This document shows, in pieces, positions 10,421 to 44,191 of a stretch of 64,000 nucleotides of DNA. A model generated the notes under the pieces. The model did not search any database. It was not told the origin of the DNA and saw only the letters and a program-made list of their open reading frames with translations. The stretch's first letter is position 1. Each line of letters begins with the position of its first letter. Origin of the DNA: Flavobacteriaceae bacterium (GTDB lineage Bacteria > Bacteroidota > Bacteroidia > Flavobacteriales > Flavobacteriaceae); assembly GCA_947456955.1 (NCBI GenBank), contig CANGTQ010000002.1, positions 1 through 64,000 on the forward strand, written 5' to 3'. A program made the translations under genes and the position numbers.

Positions 10421-10426
10421 TTATAT

Positions 10427-10462
10427 TAAGTCTTAACGTCTTAATGTCTTAATGTCTTAATG
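10427..10462. repeat. Short tandem repeat, about four copies of GTCTTAAT
   Basis: AAGTCTTAACGTCTTAATGTCTTAATGTCTTAATGTC read directly. Confidence 0.85.
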
Positions 10463-10485
10463 TCGAATCGCTCAGCTTTAAGACT

Positions 10486-10860
10486 TTATGACTTTTGACT
10501 GTCATTTAAATATTTTATAAATCCACTTATTAATTTTGAAATATCAGAAACATTTTTAAATAATTCTTCAAATTCCACTTTTTCAATATAATTCAAATCT
10601 GATGCTAAATACAATTGCGATCGAACTTCTCCGGCGGATGCTTTAGCTATATACAAAAAATGTATAAATTCTTTATCTGTATTCCTTTCAAAACCTTCTG
10701 CAATATTTGAAGAAATTGAAATAGAGGCTCTTCTTATTTGTCTGACCAAATCAAAATCTCTTTTAAAGTTTTGATTATCTGTTATTTCATAAACCCTTTT
10801 ATTAAACTGTCTGGCTTTCTGCCAAGAATTAATTTCCTCAAAAGAATTAAATTTCCCCAT
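10486..10860 (-). CDS. Four-helix-bundle protein (23S rRNA intervening-sequence protein / bAvd-like family)
   Basis: 124 aa: F.EINSWQKARQFNKRVYEITD...RQIRRASISISSNIAEGFER...FIHFLYIAKASAGEVRSQLYLA. Confidence 0.9.
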   Translation of the reverse strand: MGKFNSFEEINSWQKARQFNKRVYEITDNQNFKRDFDLVRQIRRASISISSNIAEGFERNTDKEFIHFLYIAKASAGEVRSQLYLASDLNYIEKVEFEELFKNVSDISKLISGFIKYLNDSQKS

Positions 10861-10875
10861 TTTACTTTATGACTT

Positions 10876-12231
10876 TTAGACTTTTGACATTAAGACTTGT
10901 GAAAAAGGTTCAGCTACAAAGTGATCTCTATTTTTTACTTTTTCAGGGAAACGAATATGGTATTCAAACTCGTCTCTGAAGTGACGAATTGCAGCAGCAA
11001 CTGGCCATGAAGCCGCGTCACCTAAAGGACAAATCGTATTTCCTTCAATTTTTGCCTGAATGCTCCATAACAATTCGATATCTTCTTCACGACCGTGACC
11101 GTTTTCAATTCTATGCAATACTTTTTCTAACCAACCTGTTCCTTCACGGCATGGCGTACATTGACCGCAAGATTCGTGATGATAGAAACGAGAGAAATTC
11201 CATGTATTACGAACGATACAAGCTCGGTCATCATAAACGATAAATCCACCTGAACCTAACATCGAACCTGTAGCAAAACCTCCATCTGAAAGACTTTCGT
11301 ATGTCATCAAACGGTCTTCACCTGCGGCCGTTTTGTATATTAAATGAGCTGGTAAAACCGGAACTGAACTTCCACCAGGAACCAATGCTTTTAATGGTCT
11401 GTCAGTTTGCATTCCACCACAATATTCATCAGAATTCATGAATTCATATACGGATAATCCTAAATCAATTTCGAAAACGCCTTGATTTTTGATATTTCCA
11501 GAAGCCGAAATTAATTTGGTTCCTGTTGAACGACCAATTCCGATTGCAGCATAATCAGCACCTGAATTGTTTACAATCCATGGCACAGCTGCAATTGTTT
11601 CAACATTGTTTACCACAGTTGGATTAGCCCAAAGTCCTGAAACCGCTGGGAATGGTGGTTTAATTCTAGGATTTCCACGTTTTCCTTCCAAGCTTTCAAT
11701 CAAAGCAGTTTCTTCTCCACAGATGTAGGCTCCAGCTCCAATTTGAACGTATAATTCTAAATCGTAACCTGAACCTAATATATTTTTACCCAACCAACCG
11801 GCAGCTTTTGCTTCGGCGATGGCTCTTTCTAAAATTTTGTAAACCCACATATATTCTCCACGAATGTAGATGTAAGATAGGTTGGCGCCTAAGGCATAAC
11901 TAGAGGTTATCATTCCTTCAATCAAAAGATGTGGAATGTATTCCATCAAGAAACGGTCTTTGAAAGTTCCCGGTTCTGATTCGTCAGCATTGCAAACCAA
12001 ATGTCTTGGTTTACCTGATTTCTTGTCGATAAAACTCCATTTCATTCCTGCAGGAAATCCGGCACCACCACGACCACGAAGTCCTGAAGTTTTTACTTCT
12101 TCGACTACTTCGTCCGGAGTCATTTTTTTCAAGGCTTTCTCTACAGAAGCATAACCGCCTTCTTTGCGGTATACTTCATAGGTTCTAATTCCCGGAACGT
12201 TTATTTTGTCTAATAATATTTTTCTTCCCAT
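10876..12231 (-). CDS. nuoF: NADH-quinone oxidoreductase subunit F
   Basis: GRGGAGFPAGMKWSF, NADESEPGTFKDR, HESCGQCTPCREG; start MGRKILL at 12231 lies just after nuoE. Confidence 0.95.
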   Translation of the reverse strand: MGRKILLDKINVPGIRTYEVYRKEGGYASVEKALKKMTPDEVVEEVKTSGLRGRGGAGFPAGMKWSFIDKKSGKPRHLVCNADESEPGTFKDRFLMEYIPHLLIEGMITSSYALGANLSYIYIRGEYMWVYKILERAIAEAKAAGWLGKNILGSGYDLELYVQIGAGAYICGEETALIESLEGKRGNPRIKPPFPAVSGLWANPTVVNNVETIAAVPWIVNNSGADYAAIGIGRSTGTKLISASGNIKNQGVFEIDLGLSVYEFMNSDEYCGGMQTDRPLKALVPGGSSVPVLPAHLIYKTAAGEDRLMTYESLSDGGFATGSMLGSGGFIVYDDRACIVRNTWNFSRFYHHESCGQCTPCREGTGWLEKVLHRIENGHGREEDIELLWSIQAKIEGNTICPLGDAASWPVAAAIRHFRDEFEYHIRFPEKVKNRDHFVAEPFSQVLMSKV

Positions 12232-12235
12232 GATA

Positions 12236-12766
12236 TTACTTATCGTGTAAAGTGATTTTTCCGTCTTTGCAATCAGCAATCAACTGATCGATTTTTGCTT
12301 CTGTCAAATGTTCCTGGTAGAAATCACCCAACTGCATCATTGGCGCATAACCACAAGCTCCAAGACATTCAACGCCACGAACTTCGAAAAGTCCGTCAGC
12401 GGTTGGTTCGCCAACTTTTACGCCTAATTTGTTACACGTATAATCCATCAAATTTTCTATGCCATTTAAACAACAGGCAGAAGTTTGGCAGAATTCGAAC
12501 ATGTATTTCCCTATAGGTCTTTGATTGTACATGGTATAAAATGTCACTACTTCATAGACTTCAATCGGCTGTATTTCTAAAATTTCGGCTACCTTGTTTT
12601 GTAAATCAATGCTTAACCAATTATCATGAGCATCCTGAACTTCATGTAAAACAGGCAATAGCGCCGATTTTCTTTTGTCTGCAGGATAATGACTGATTAG
12701 CTCATTGATGCGAGTCATCAAAGCATCGGTTATATTTATTTCTTGTTTGATGTGTGATCTTTCCAT
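12236..12766 (-). CDS. nuoE: NADH-quinone oxidoreductase subunit E
   Basis: Thioredoxin-like 2Fe-2S protein: CQTSACCLNG...VECLGACGYAPMMQ. Confidence 0.93.
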   Translation of the reverse strand: MERSHIKQEINITDALMTRINELISHYPADKRKSALLPVLHEVQDAHDNWLSIDLQNKVAEILEIQPIEVYEVVTFYTMYNQRPIGKYMFEFCQTSACCLNGIENLMDYTCNKLGVKVGEPTADGLFEVRGVECLGACGYAPMMQLGDFYQEHLTEAKIDQLIADCKDGKITLHDK

Positions 12767-12779
12767 TTTTTAATTTGAG

Positions 12780-12843
12780 ATTTAGGATTTAGGATTTAGG
12801 ATTTTTCAATCTGCCTTCTAAAATCTGTATTCTGCAATCTTAT
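12780..12843. repeat. Heptad-periodic inverted repeat (GATTnnn)4 / (AATCnnn)5-like
   Basis: GATTTAG GATTTAG GATTTAG GATTTTT then AATCTGC CTTCTAA AATCTGT ATTCTGC AATCTTA. Confidence 0.75.
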
Positions 12844-12849
12844 TTCTTT

Positions 12850-14085
12850 TTAAGCGTCTAATTCGCCGGCAATTACATTTAAACTTGATAATATTACGAT
12901 AGCATCGGATAACATTCCGCCTTTAATCATTTCAGTATACGCTTGATAATAAATATAACAAGGTCTTCTGAATTTCAATCGGTAAGGTGTTCGGCTACCG
13001 TCAGTAATTAGATAAAATCCTAATTCTCCGTTTCCGCCTTCCACAGCATGATAAATTTCATCAACAGGAACTGGAACTTCTCCCATCACAATTTTAAAGT
13101 GATAGATTAAGCTTTCCATATTGGTGTAAACATCTTCTTTTGGAGGTAAATAATAATCAGGAACATCAGCGTGAATTGGGCCTTCCGGTAATTTAGCTAA
13201 AGCTTGTTTGATGATGCTTAAGCTTTCCCAAACTTCGGCATTACGTACACAAAAACGATCATATGTATCACCTGATTTTCCAACAGGGATGTCAAATTCA
13301 AAATCTTCATAAGATGAATAAGGAGCAGCTTTACGTACATCGTAATCGATTCCAGCGGCACGTAAATTTGGGCCTGTTAATCCGTATTGCATTGCGCTTT
13401 CGGCAGTAATTGGTCCAACATTAACCGTTCTGTCAATAAAGATTCTGTTTCTTTCAAAAAGATTTTCGAATTCTTTCCATGCAACCGGAAATTCTTCAAG
13501 GAAAGTGTTAAGCAATTCAAATGCTTTTGGCGACCATTCTCTTTCGAAACCGCCAATTCTACCCATATTTGTTGTTAAACGAGCGCCACAAATTTCTTCA
13601 TAGATTTCATAAACTTTTTCTCTGAATTGAAAAACATAAAGGAAACCAGTATAAGCTCCAGTATCAACCCCAAGGATTGAATTGCAAATCAAGTGATCGG
13701 TAATTCTGGCTAATTCCATCACAATAACTCTCAAATATTGGGCTCTTTTCGGGATTTCAATATTTAACAGTTTTTCTACGGTCATCCACCAAGCCATATT
13801 ATTGATAGGTGAGGAACAATAGTTCATACGGTCAGTCAATACATTGATTTGGTAAAACGGACGGTTTTCGGCTATTTTTTCGAAAGCTCTGTGAATATAA
13901 CCAACGGTTGGTTCAGCATCTAATATTCGCTCGCCATCCATTAATAAAATATTTTGGAAAATTCCGTGTGTAGCCGGGTGAGTTGGTCCTAAATTTAAGA
14001 TAGAAAATTCACTTCCGTCTTCATTTCGGCTTTGCTCTATGATTTTAGCATAGCGATGCTCTGGTGGTAATAGTAAATCTGACAT
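12850..14085 (-). CDS. nuoD: NADH-quinone oxidoreductase subunit D
   Basis: 49-kDa subunit: LGPTHPATHGIFQNILLMDGE, GYIHRAFEK. Confidence 0.95.
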   Translation of the reverse strand: MSDLLLPPEHRYAKIIEQSRNEDGSEFSILNLGPTHPATHGIFQNILLMDGERILDAEPTVGYIHRAFEKIAENRPFYQINVLTDRMNYCSSPINNMAWWMTVEKLLNIEIPKRAQYLRVIVMELARITDHLICNSILGVDTGAYTGFLYVFQFREKVYEIYEEICGARLTTNMGRIGGFEREWSPKAFELLNTFLEEFPVAWKEFENLFERNRIFIDRTVNVGPITAESAMQYGLTGPNLRAAGIDYDVRKAAPYSSYEDFEFDIPVGKSGDTYDRFCVRNAEVWESLSIIKQALAKLPEGPIHADVPDYYLPPKEDVYTNMESLIYHFKIVMGEVPVPVDEIYHAVEGGNGELGFYLITDGSRTPYRLKFRRPCYIYYQAYTEMIKGGMLSDAIVILSSLNVIAGELDA

Positions 14086-24971: not shown

Positions 24972-24979
24972 AGTAATTT

Positions 24980-25052
24980 GTTTATTGTTTAGTTTTTGTA
25001 GTTTGTTGTTATGGTTATACTATAAACCATAAACTACAAACCATAAACTTTT
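24980..25052. repeat. Heptad-periodic inverted repeat (GTTnnnn)5 / (AACnnnn)4
   Basis: GTTTATT GTTTAGT TTTTGTA GTTTGTT GTTATGG ... AACCATA AACTACA AACCATA AACTTTT. Confidence 0.8.
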
Positions 25053-29365: not shown

Positions 29366-29463
29366 ATTGTTGATTTAAGATTGGGGAATGATGATTTTAG
29401 ATGGGTATTAAATCAAAACCAACGACATAATTTCAAATCAAAAATCGTTAATCTTAAATCTTA
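29365..29463. repeat. Heptad-periodic inverted repeat (GATTnnn)6 / (AATCnnn)4
   Basis: GATTGTT GATTTAA GATTGGG GAATGAT GATTTTA GATGGGT ... AATCAAA AATCGTT AATCTTA AATCTTA then AATG. Confidence 0.75.
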
Positions 29464-29464
29464 A

Positions 29465-33258: not shown

Positions 33259-33339
33259 GTTTGTGGTTTTGGGTTTGTAGTTTATAGTTAAACACAAACA
33301 AGGAAACCATAAACAACAAACTATAAACAATAAACTAAA
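33259..33339. repeat. Heptad-periodic inverted repeat (GTTnnnn)5 / (AACnnnn)5
   Basis: GTTTGTG GTTTTGG GTTTGTA GTTTATA GTTAAAC ... AACCATA AACAACA AACTATA AACAATA AACTAAA. Confidence 0.85.
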
Positions 33340-36678: not shown

Positions 36679-36720
36679 AACCTGCAACCTTAAACTCGAA
36701 ACTCGTAACCCGCAACTCAA
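36679..36720. repeat. Six consecutive AACnnnn heptamers abutting the tatD start codon
   Basis: AACCTGC AACCTTA AACTCGA AACTCGT AACCCGC AACTCAA then AATG. Confidence 0.8.
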
Positions 36721-41204: not shown

Positions 41205-42674
41205 TTATATCTTTTTCCTCATTCTCGCTACAGGAATATCAAGCAAGTCTCTGTATTTAGCGATGGTTCTTCGGGCAATTGGATAGCCTTTTTCTTTTAG
41301 AATTTCAGCCAGTTGATCATCAGGTAAAGGCTTGTTTTTGTCTTCTTCTTCAATAATGTTTTTCAGAATATTTTTGATTTCCAAGGTAGAAACATCTTCA
41401 CCCTGATCGTTTTTCATGGATTCTGAAAAATATTCTTTAATAAGTTTTGTGCCATAAGGCGTATCGACATATTTACTATTGGCCACACGGGAAACGGTTG
41501 AAATATCAAGGCCAACCATATCGGCAATGTCTTTCAAAATCATTGGTTTCAATTTGGTTTCTTCACCATCAAGGAAATATTCCTGCTGAAAATGCATAAT
41601 GGCATTCATCGTAACAAAAAGTGTTTCCTGACGTTGGCGAATCGCATCGATAAACCATTTGGCAGAATCCAATTTTTGCTTAATAAACTGCACGGCATCT
41701 TTTTGCGAATGCGATTTGTCTTTAGAAACTTTATAGGTTTGCAGCATTTCCTTATAATCTTTGGAAATATGCAAAGTTGGCGCATTCCTGCCGTTTAACG
41801 TAAGTTCTAATTCGCCATCAACAATTCGAATTGCAAAATCGGGAACAATTTGTTCTACCGTTCGATTACTGTTGTCAAATGCACCGCCTGGTTTGGGATT
41901 CAATTTTTCAATTTCTTCAATCGCTTTTTTCAGTTGCTCTTTTGAAATTTCGTAAGTCGATTGTAGTTTATCATAATGCTTTTTGGTAAACGCATCAAAA
42001 TTATTCTGGATAATATTAATAGCTAAATCAACGTATTCTGTCGGCGTTTTGTGTCGGAGTTGCAACAATAAACATTCGTGTAAATCTCTGGCGCCAACTC
42101 CGGAAGGCTCTAAATCATGTATGAAGTGCAGAATTTTTTCAACGGTTTTTTCGTCGGTATAAATACCTTGTGTAAATGCCATGTCGTCAACAATGTCTTG
42201 AACACTTCTGCGCAAATAACCATCATCATCAATACTTCCCACCAAAAACTCAGCGATATCACGTTGTTCATCCGTTAAGATAAAAGTATTTAACTGATTG
42301 ATTAAATCCTGGTGAAAACTTGTCGGTGCTGCAAATGGCATTTCACGGTCATCATCATCATCGCTATAATTATTGGCCTGAAGCTTATAGTCCGGAGTTT
42401 CATCATTGCTTAAATATTCGTCGATGTTGATTTCGTCAGTTTCGATGTTTTCGCTGCCTTCATAATCATCATATTCGTCATTGTTGTCGAACTCATCTTT
42501 CTCATACAATTCATCATCTTCTTCTTTACCGCTTTCCAATGCCGGATTTTCAACCATTTCCTCCTTGAGTCGTTGCTCAAATGCTTGTGTAGGCAATTGT
42601 ATCAACTTCATCAACTGAATTTGTTGAGGAGATAGTTTTTGTGATAATTTTAGATTTAGAAACTGCTTTAACAT
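41205..42674 (-). CDS. rpoN: RNA polymerase sigma-54 factor
   Basis: LSQKLSPQQIQLMKLIQLPTQAFEQRL and ARRTIAKYRDLLDIPVARMRKKI RpoN box. Confidence 0.95.
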   Translation of the reverse strand: MLKQFLNLKLSQKLSPQQIQLMKLIQLPTQAFEQRLKEEMVENPALESGKEEDDELYEKDEFDNNDEYDDYEGSENIETDEINIDEYLSNDETPDYKLQANNYSDDDDDREMPFAAPTSFHQDLINQLNTFILTDEQRDIAEFLVGSIDDDGYLRRSVQDIVDDMAFTQGIYTDEKTVEKILHFIHDLEPSGVGARDLHECLLLQLRHKTPTEYVDLAINIIQNNFDAFTKKHYDKLQSTYEISKEQLKKAIEEIEKLNPKPGGAFDNSNRTVEQIVPDFAIRIVDGELELTLNGRNAPTLHISKDYKEMLQTYKVSKDKSHSQKDAVQFIKQKLDSAKWFIDAIRQRQETLFVTMNAIMHFQQEYFLDGEETKLKPMILKDIADMVGLDISTVSRVANSKYVDTPYGTKLIKEYFSESMKNDQGEDVSTLEIKNILKNIIEEEDKNKPLPDDQLAEILKEKGYPIARRTIAKYRDLLDIPVARMRKKI

Positions 42675-42678
42675 AGTT

Positions 42679-42744
42679 GTTTGTGGTTTGTTGTTAATGG
42701 TTTATAGTTAACTCTAAACTACAAACCATAAACTATAAACAATT
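42679..42744. repeat. Heptad-periodic inverted repeat (GTTnnnn)5 / (AACnnnn)5 meeting at GTTAAC
   Basis: GTTTGTG GTTTGTT GTTAATG GTTTATA GTTAACT / AACTCTA AACTACA AACCATA AACTATA AACAATT. Confidence 0.85.
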
Positions 42745-42745
42745 T

Positions 42746-44191
42746 TTAGAACTCTGCATTTTGTGGCGTTCTTGGGAATGGAATTACGTCGCGGATGTTG
42801 GTCATACCGGTTACAAATAATACCAATCTTTCAAATCCTAATCCGAAACCTGAATGCACAGCCGAACCAAATCTTCGTGTATCTAAATACCACCATAGTT
42901 CTTCTTCGTCAATTCCTAATGCTTTCATTTTTTCAACCAGAACATCGTAACGTTCTTCTCTCTGCGAACCTCCAACGATTTCTCCAATTCCGGGGAATAA
43001 TATATCCATGGCGCGAACCGTTTCTTTGCCAGGTTCGGTATTGTCGTTCAAACGCATATAAAAGGCTTTAATATTTGCCGGATAATCAAACAAAATCACC
43101 GGACATTTAAAATGTTTTTCAACTAAATACCTTTCATGTTCTGATTGTAAGTCGGCTCCCCATTCGTTTATGATGTAACTAAATTTCTTCTTTTTATTCG
43201 GAGTAGAATCTCTTAAAATATCAATGGCTTCGGTATAAGAAACACGTTTGAAATTGTTTTCTAAAACGAAATTTAATTTCTCTAACAAACTCATTTCACT
43301 TCTTTCTGCTTGTGGTTTTTGTTTTTCTTCTTCCGCTAAACGACTTTCTAAAAACTTCAAATCGTCCTGACATTTATCCATCGTATATTTAATCACGTAT
43401 TGGATAAAATCTTCTGCCAAATCCATATTATCATTCAAATCATTGAAAGCCACTTCCGGTTCAATCATCCAAAATTCTGCTAAGTGACGGGATGTATTTG
43501 AATTTTCTGCACGGAAAGTAGGTCCGAAAGTATAAATTTGACCCAACGCCATGGCGAATGTTTCACCTTCCAACTGCCCAGAAACGGTTAAGTTCGTGTG
43601 TTTTCCGAAGAAATCTTTTTTGTAATCGATGTTTCCTTCTTCGTTTTTTGGTAAATTGTCTAATGGCAATGAAGTTACCTGAAACATTTCTCCAGCACCT
43701 TCAGCATCAGCACCGGTAATAACAGGCGTGTTTACATATACAAATCCTTTTTCCTGAAAATACGTATGAACGGCATGAGCCAAAACGGAACGTACTCTCA
43801 TAATCGCTCCGAAAGCATTAGTTCGAACTCTTAAATGCGCATTTTCACGCAAGAATTCCAACGAATGTTTCTTTGGTTGCATAGGGAATTTCTCCGCATC
43901 AGAATCGCCCAAAATTTCTAATTTAGAAACTTGGATTTCGTATTTCTGTCCAGCACCTTTGCTTTCTACCAAAGCTCCAATCACCGAAACAGCGGATCCA
44001 GTCGTAATTCTTTTCAATGTTTCTTCAGGTGTGTTTTCAAAATCAACAACACACTGAATATTATTTATTGTCGAACCATCGTTCAGTGCTATAAATTGAT
44101 TGTTTCTAAAAGTTCTTACCCAACCTTTTGCATTTACTTCTGAAATCGTAGTTTCACTGTTTAGTAAGCTTTTAACTTTTGTATGTTTCAT
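42746..44191 (-). CDS. asnS: Asparagine-tRNA ligase
   Basis: Class II aa[45 protein letters not shown]. Confidence 0.95.

Follow-up and report, generated by a model that had tools for sequence, protein, structure and literature searches.

The 64,000-nucleotide (nt) stretch of a Flavobacteriaceae bacterium analyzed here (contig CANGTQ010000002.1, positions 1 to 64,000; hereafter, the window) contains, between the genes for asparagine-tRNA ligase (asnS) and sigma-54 (rpoN), a heptad-phased inverted repeat at 42679-42744 that is very probably a gene-less member of a dispersed family of cassettes built around S23 genes. The cassette gene encodes a four-helix-bundle protein annotated as '23S rRNA-intervening sequence protein' (PF05635) and is enclosed by two inverted arms, each a row of short units with a period of 7 or 8 nt. 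The architecture of these elements, their dispersal, the association with S23 over phyla, the co-variation of the arms, the commonest count of five units and the correspondence of the period with the S23 clade were established by computation. The best explanation as a whole is probably that of a gene-less S23-cassette member with arms that are read by an S23 ring. The element and the adjacent genes are:

42679..42713, no strand assigned: 5' arm, (GTTnnnn)5, a strict chain of five
42710..42744, no strand assigned: 3' arm, (AACnnnn)5, a strict chain of five, with GTTAAC common to both arms
41205..42674, minus strand: rpoN (sigma-54), the downstream gene
42746..44191, minus strand: asnS (asparagine-tRNA ligase), the upstream gene

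The phased hairpin fills the 71-nt gap (42675-42745) between the two co-directional minus-strand genes. A preliminary description of this DNA had recognized such a filled gap, and had read five GTT units and then five AAC units, at a period of 7 and meeting at GTTAAC; all of this was confirmed, with the GTT row starting at 42679 and the AAC row at 42710. Each arm thus has five anchor units, with GTT, rather than strict AG, as the anchor. Folded as coding-strand RNA, the element reaches -21.2 kcal/mol (z -2.9), and its 3' arm extends up to the rpoN start. The inverted arms, phased at 7 nt with the G-containing arm leading, conform to the cassette family, where the phase is 7 or 8 nt; because the gap is only 71 nt long and no S23 gene lies between the arms, the element is classified as a gene-less member and not as a full cassette. 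It is located between asnS and rpoN, not in an rRNA helix as are the intervening sequences (IVS) of 23S rRNA; an Rfam scan of the window matched only a tRNA, and there is no rRNA in the window.

Elements of this kind are dispersed throughout the source genome (G000; 2.49 Mb, Flavobacterium-like, judging from how similar S23 loci are named), for which the statistics come from a 457-kb sample and genome-wide pattern searches, with genes called as simple open reading frames (ORFs). The pattern GTTTN3GTTN4GTT N8-38 AACN4AACN4AAC matches the window 11 times, whereas 100 dinucleotide shuffles gave no match; genome-wide, the GTT/AAC pattern yields 37+50 matches at 20 loci, compared to 1+0 for the pattern read backwards. 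Runs of at least five units of a 3-nt anchor number 57 at period 7 and 18 at period 8 in the 457-kb sample, compared to 0 at either period in an order-3 Markov copy. The unit types in the element list are diverse, including GTTTATR, GATTTAG, AATTATG, AACTCG, CAACCGA and AGTAATT at period 7, and AATTTGAA, CTGAGTAA and GTCTTAAT in a parallel class with period 8. Among the paired elements listed, the arm with G generally comes first and the arm with C second. Elements occupy 23 of 143 co-directional, 3 of 28 convergent and 5 of 42 divergent gaps, so that 23 of the 31 are in co-directional gaps. In the 20 gene-less GTT/AAC elements, exactly five units are present in 14 of the right arms and 9 of the left arms, and the two arms co-vary (p=0.01). 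Thus, the earlier claims that other loci carry other anchors, and that a dispersed family retains the 7-nt phase and complementary arms while the sequence varies, hold; overlooked were the 8-nt class, the AG/CT anchors, the usual five units per arm, the S23-bearing cassettes (one in the window and one with GTTTATR arms) and the spread over many phyla.

The source genome has 15 S23 matches, about 11 of which, by reading of the loci, lie between phased inverted arms, and several arm unit types of these loci reappear in gene-less elements. In particular, the S23 gene of L167 (G000:C15:30880-31191) is set within GTTTATR arms, with GTTTATTGTTTGTGGTTTATAGTTTATTGTT on one side and CCATAAACC...ACTATAAACCACAAAC on the other, so that the arm type of the 42679-42744 element flanks an S23 gene elsewhere in the same genome. 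The window itself includes one gene-bearing cassette, in the nuoF-nuoG gap:

10486..10860, minus strand: S23 gene (PF05635 / TIGR02436, four-helix bundle)
10864..10898, minus strand: 5' arm, GTC every ~8 nt (L162, period 8)
10426..10464, minus strand: 3' arm, (ATTAAGAC)n, stopping just short of the nuoG start

The 5' arm of this cassette overlaps the last codons and the stop of nuoF. S23 genes are present in 79 of 81 genomes of the genus and in 116 of 148 genomes of the phylum, evolve under purifying selection (group median pN/pS 0.17-0.28) and encode proteins weakly similar to Avd of diversity-generating retroelements.

The association of S23 with inverted arms is strong within the genus, where 23 of 28 S23 loci have flanks with an inverted-repeat score above the 95th percentile of the controls (p=4e-13), and extends well beyond it. 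In a wider scan of bacterial and archaeal species with a profile built from four S23 proteins, 76 loci were scored, and the S23 flanks reached a median of 30.5, compared to 16 in windows taken from the same loci (p=1.5e-34). Outside Bacteroidota, 20 of 29 loci ranked at 0.05 or better, with arms at lag 7 or 8; the non-Bacteroidota loci include those from Acidobacteriota, Clostridia, Desulfobacterota, Nitrospirae, Planctomycetes and Campylobacterota. The 3' arm begins a median of 4.5 nt past the S23 stop and, in the examples read, finishes just ahead of the next start codon.

When both arms are read towards the center, the fixed anchor is AG in 121 of 161 arms, compared to 54 expected with the unit columns permuted; the 5' arm repeats AG, and the 3' arm CT, at intervals of 7 or 8 nt. 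Unit counts, taken as strict uninterrupted AG chains at 7 or 8 nt in 147 S23 loci, peak at five: exactly five units are found in 41 upstream arms (four in 17, six in 15) and in 46 downstream arms (four in 24, six in 5). Chains of at least four were detected in 2 of 294 shuffled flanks, and in 56% of the S23 flanks against 0.7% of other windows from the same loci. The loci named outside Flavobacterium show the same peak, and five still leads after removal of S23 proteins more than 60% identical, both upstream (18, against 6 with four and 9 with six) and downstream (15, against 8 and 4). The structures of two S23 homologues, 2GSC and 2RLD, contain five chains each, and S23p of Xanthomonas is described as a homopentameric torus (PMC4990558). 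The commonest chain is therefore five, as is the number of chains in the homologues, with a wide spread of unit counts; the match between the usual five repeats per arm and the five-fold S23 ring suggests that the ring binds the arms. The period, 7 or 8, follows the S23 tree, with 8 changes compared to 32 in shuffles (0/500), and one broad S23 clade contains period-8 rows from several phyla. Further phased elements of the window are:

24972..25051, no strand assigned: second gene-less GTT/AAC element; the orthologous gap of the relative G026 is an S23 cassette
33259..33339, no strand assigned: third gene-less GTT/AAC element, 5 + 5 units
12760..12851, no strand assigned: phased element with GATTTAG units, period 7
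29366..29464, no strand assigned: phased element with GATT/AATC units
36679..36720, plus strand: lone (AACnnnn)6 array, immediately upstream of an ATG

Across about 70 genomes of the genus, most asnS-rpoN gaps contain a phased inverted repeat with differing units and a period of 7 or 8. In a non-redundant set of 42 such gaps, 32 have their best lag at 7 or 8, and pairing of arms within a species exceeds pairing of arms across species (permutation p=5e-5). Between G000 and G071, the asnS-rpoN element is 97% identical, compared to about 83% for both flanking genes. The gap with the 24972-25051 element is gene-less in G000, G071 and G003, and is occupied by an S23 cassette in G026. The nuoF-nuoG gap exists in three states, namely, a short gap of 10-19 nt, a gene-less phased hairpin, and S23 between phased arms; the last form is found in G000 and four other genomes, in one of them with an internal stop, and looks vertically inherited and repeatedly lost. 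The S23 proteins encoded in this gap are 82-85% identical across species and at most 43% identical to other S23 proteins of G000. Hence the presence/absence alleles anticipated in the preliminary description do exist, as empty, gene-less and gene-bearing forms of orthologous gaps. The family is dispersed with such alleles; movement as such would go beyond them, the gene-bearing form at nuoF-nuoG looking vertically inherited. No target-site duplication of the kind that marks miniature inverted-repeat transposable elements is evident by eye in this gap, with the ends not placeable because the empty and filled gaps differ too much.

The same two gaps have additional occupants. In the asnS-rpoN gap, L033, L037, L042, L044, L047, L057, L064 and others contain a GxxExxY gene (PD-(D/E)XK, PF13366) enclosed by period-8 arms, CACGAAGG / CTTCGTGG, and in L060 a split hairpin encloses a two-gene module resembling the HigB/HigA toxin-antitoxin pair. 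In the distant relatives L092, L093, L095 and L097-L099, this gap contains a plain hairpin with a T run, the loop of which seems to hold a TAnnTTTG promoter box, so that a promoter would be nested in a terminator. The usual AG-type hairpin is missing from the asnS-rpoN gap of L084 and L099, which belong to the only two S23-less genomes of the 81 (G073 and G041), two genomes being too few for a test. At nuoF-nuoG, L178, L185, L229 and L251 have another short palindrome, ACTCCGTAGGAGT or one like it, in place of the phased hairpin, and the related species of L233, L239 and L245 contain element A or element B singly, or both in tandem, which points to recent gain or loss.

A full cassette consists of a 5' arm, which often has five units containing AG and spaced 7 or 8 nt apart, then a short leader, the S23 gene and, directly past the stop codon of that gene, a 3' arm reverse-complementary to the 5' arm, all placed between neighboring, mostly co-directional genes. 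In the mechanism we propose, the S23 homopentamer would take up a single-stranded arm in the manner in which RNA wraps around the trp RNA-binding attenuation protein (TRAP), one subunit per AG (or NGTT) unit; S23 is likely to bind the arms. Binding would compete with arm-arm pairing in the read-through mRNA, and, depending on the outcome, the intercistronic hairpin would form or not and the downstream gene, here rpoN, would be processed or translated accordingly. Because the 3' arm lies just after the S23 stop and ends before the next start codon, such a switch would act on the downstream gene; that the arms affect this gene is conceivable but rather doubtful. Gene-less copies such as 42679-42744 would be trans targets of S23 made elsewhere, the candidate in this case being the L166/L167 clade, with its own GTT-anchored arms. 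More broadly, and tentatively, S23 proteins might act as rings that read a spaced code of five AG (or NG) anchors, with the period of 7 or 8 nt set by the S23 clade and the other letters largely free; cassettes and gene-less arms might then form sequence-tolerant regulons in which the ring opens intercistronic hairpins or keeps them closed.

Several observations weigh against this reading. In about 44% of the S23 flanks, no AG chain reaches four units, whether through decay or through the diversity of the family, and after removal of redundant S23 sequences, flanks without a phased chain (1-2) outnumber those with five, four or six units. Near copies account for part of the clustering of the period on the tree and inflate the statistic. 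The anchor of the GTT/AAC family is NGTT instead of strict AG, and the element at 24972-25051 is not clearly more conserved than the genes flanking it. Taken as one RNA, the complete S23 cassette in the window has no folding advantage over shuffles (z -1.0), even though the two arms pair in the predicted fold. Finally, genes for GxxExxY nucleases are likewise flanked by inverted repeats (above the control 95th percentile in 18 of 23 loci of the genus), so that S23 is not the sole cargo.

The strongest rival, albeit an unlikely one, is a selfish element, the intergenic counterpart of the 23S rRNA IVS (a stem with an S23 ORF), in which RNase III would excise the stem from the mRNA without any regulatory role, gene-less hairpins would be decayed remains, and the phase would be a by-product of copying. 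In both cases S23 lies inside a stem, and the Coxiella IVS is excised by RNase III (PMC4990558). Gene-less and gene-bearing forms of one arm type indeed occupy the same sites, and the GTT/AAC type is scattered over 20 loci. However, the purifying selection on S23 and its inheritance with the site at nuoF-nuoG are at odds with a purely selfish element, as is the lack of a visible target-site duplication, and if the phase were a by-product, no preference for a count close to the oligomer number would be expected. Furthermore, we know of no enzyme that moves the cassette. Replication slippage with hairpin-templated repair, whereby heptamer tracts grow and template switching copies changes between units and arms, would produce functionless phased palindromes of any sequence, and could account for units that are free to vary, yet evolve together; it leaves unexplained the S23 association over phyla, the AG anchor, the commonest count of five, the tie between period and clade, and the higher identity of the asnS-rpoN element compared to its flanking genes. 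Slippage is accordingly an improbable full explanation, and may be the route by which units are homogenized.

An unusual intrinsic terminator or 3'-end stabilizer between asnS and rpoN is very improbable. The element does fold better than shuffles, and a classic-looking T-run hairpin occurs in the same gap of distant species (L093, L095, L097-L099), but in the rpoN-asnS gap of the window a search for a terminator-like site found none: the GC-rich stem with a T run is absent, as the preliminary description had noted, and the 3' arm continues up to the rpoN start. Nor are elements enriched between convergent genes relative to co-directional ones. Three further candidates were rejected. A fixed-sequence mobile element does not fit, as the units at one orthologous gap differ among species, with only near relatives such as G000 and G071 sharing a copy. 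The earlier suggestion of repetitive extragenic palindromes (REPs) with a REP-associated tyrosine transposase (RAYT) fails because the single Y1-transposase-like frame in the genome (PF01797) is broken by two stops, an internal TAG and a TAA, leaving no intact cognate enzyme. A reverse transcriptase acting in trans, an idea drawn from the weak likeness to Avd, was discarded because PF00078 is absent in 41 of 81 genomes of the genus; one of these, G071 (87% complete), has nine S23 matches and the same hairpin. Separately, two neighboring reverse-transcriptase genes were observed at G000:C6:116728-120696.

In the open-access literature, no paper linking S23 to flanking phased repeats was found, and an earlier description elsewhere is possible. 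S23 / four-helix-bundle genes occur widely and, to our knowledge, have not been assigned a function. Here S23 is tied to a definite nucleic-acid architecture that can be measured, in which the units number close to the oligomer and the period follows the protein clade; its function thereby becomes directly testable. If true, reading of a spaced code would supply the function of a family that so far goes only by the name '23S rRNA intervening sequence / four helix bundle protein'. The S23-cassette reading is one way to explain the phased intergenic hairpins found in Flavobacterium, and perhaps also the heptad repeats that other studies have taken for slippage or quadruplex tracts.

Among known systems, REPs are marked by sequence conservation and by a Y1 transposase. 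REP/REPIN elements with RAYT resemble the present family in being scattered short intergenic palindromes with a possible partner protein, whereas the phased hairpins have no conserved sequence, and the sole Y1 frame in the genome is broken. Heptameric repeats are also known in cyanobacteria, as STRR. IVS with an S23p ORF in 23S rRNA are known from Coxiella and Leptospira and, like the cassettes, have complementary ends that form a stem with the PF05635 protein inside (PMC4990558). IVS lie in rRNA helices 9, 25 or 45, whereas the cassette is found between genes for proteins; in the text consulted, neither phased arms nor dispersed copies lacking the gene are mentioned, IVS being compared by description.

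The GGGAATC / GGGGAYT heptamers of Xanthomonas and Nostoc (Rehm 2015, PMC4692102), with 70-75 convergent inverted pairs per Xanthomonas genome, are likewise heptads between aligned genes, near the stop on the coding strand or near the start on the other strand. Unlike the S23 arms, they are read as G-quadruplexes, prefer four units and have a unit without AG; 'S23' is absent from the text of that paper. The TAACTGA direct repeats of Beggiatoaceae, Cyanobacteria and some Bacteroidetes also are intergenic heptads just ahead of start codons for which a repeat-binding protein is suspected (PMC4679880). They differ in having a single fixed unit, in direct orientation except for one inverted case, and S1, Csp and CsrA as the proposed binders.

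The S23 arms differ from the targets of TRAP in being palindromic, in lying on either side of the S23 gene and in having units of variable sequence. The spacers between TRAP motifs are 2-3 nt, shorter than the spacing in the S23 arms. TRAP is a ring of 11 subunits, from another protein family, that binds a row of (G/U)AG triplets (PMC3913778). Common to both systems are a ring of identical subunits and an evenly spaced (N)AG row, and one motif per subunit would be the parallel.
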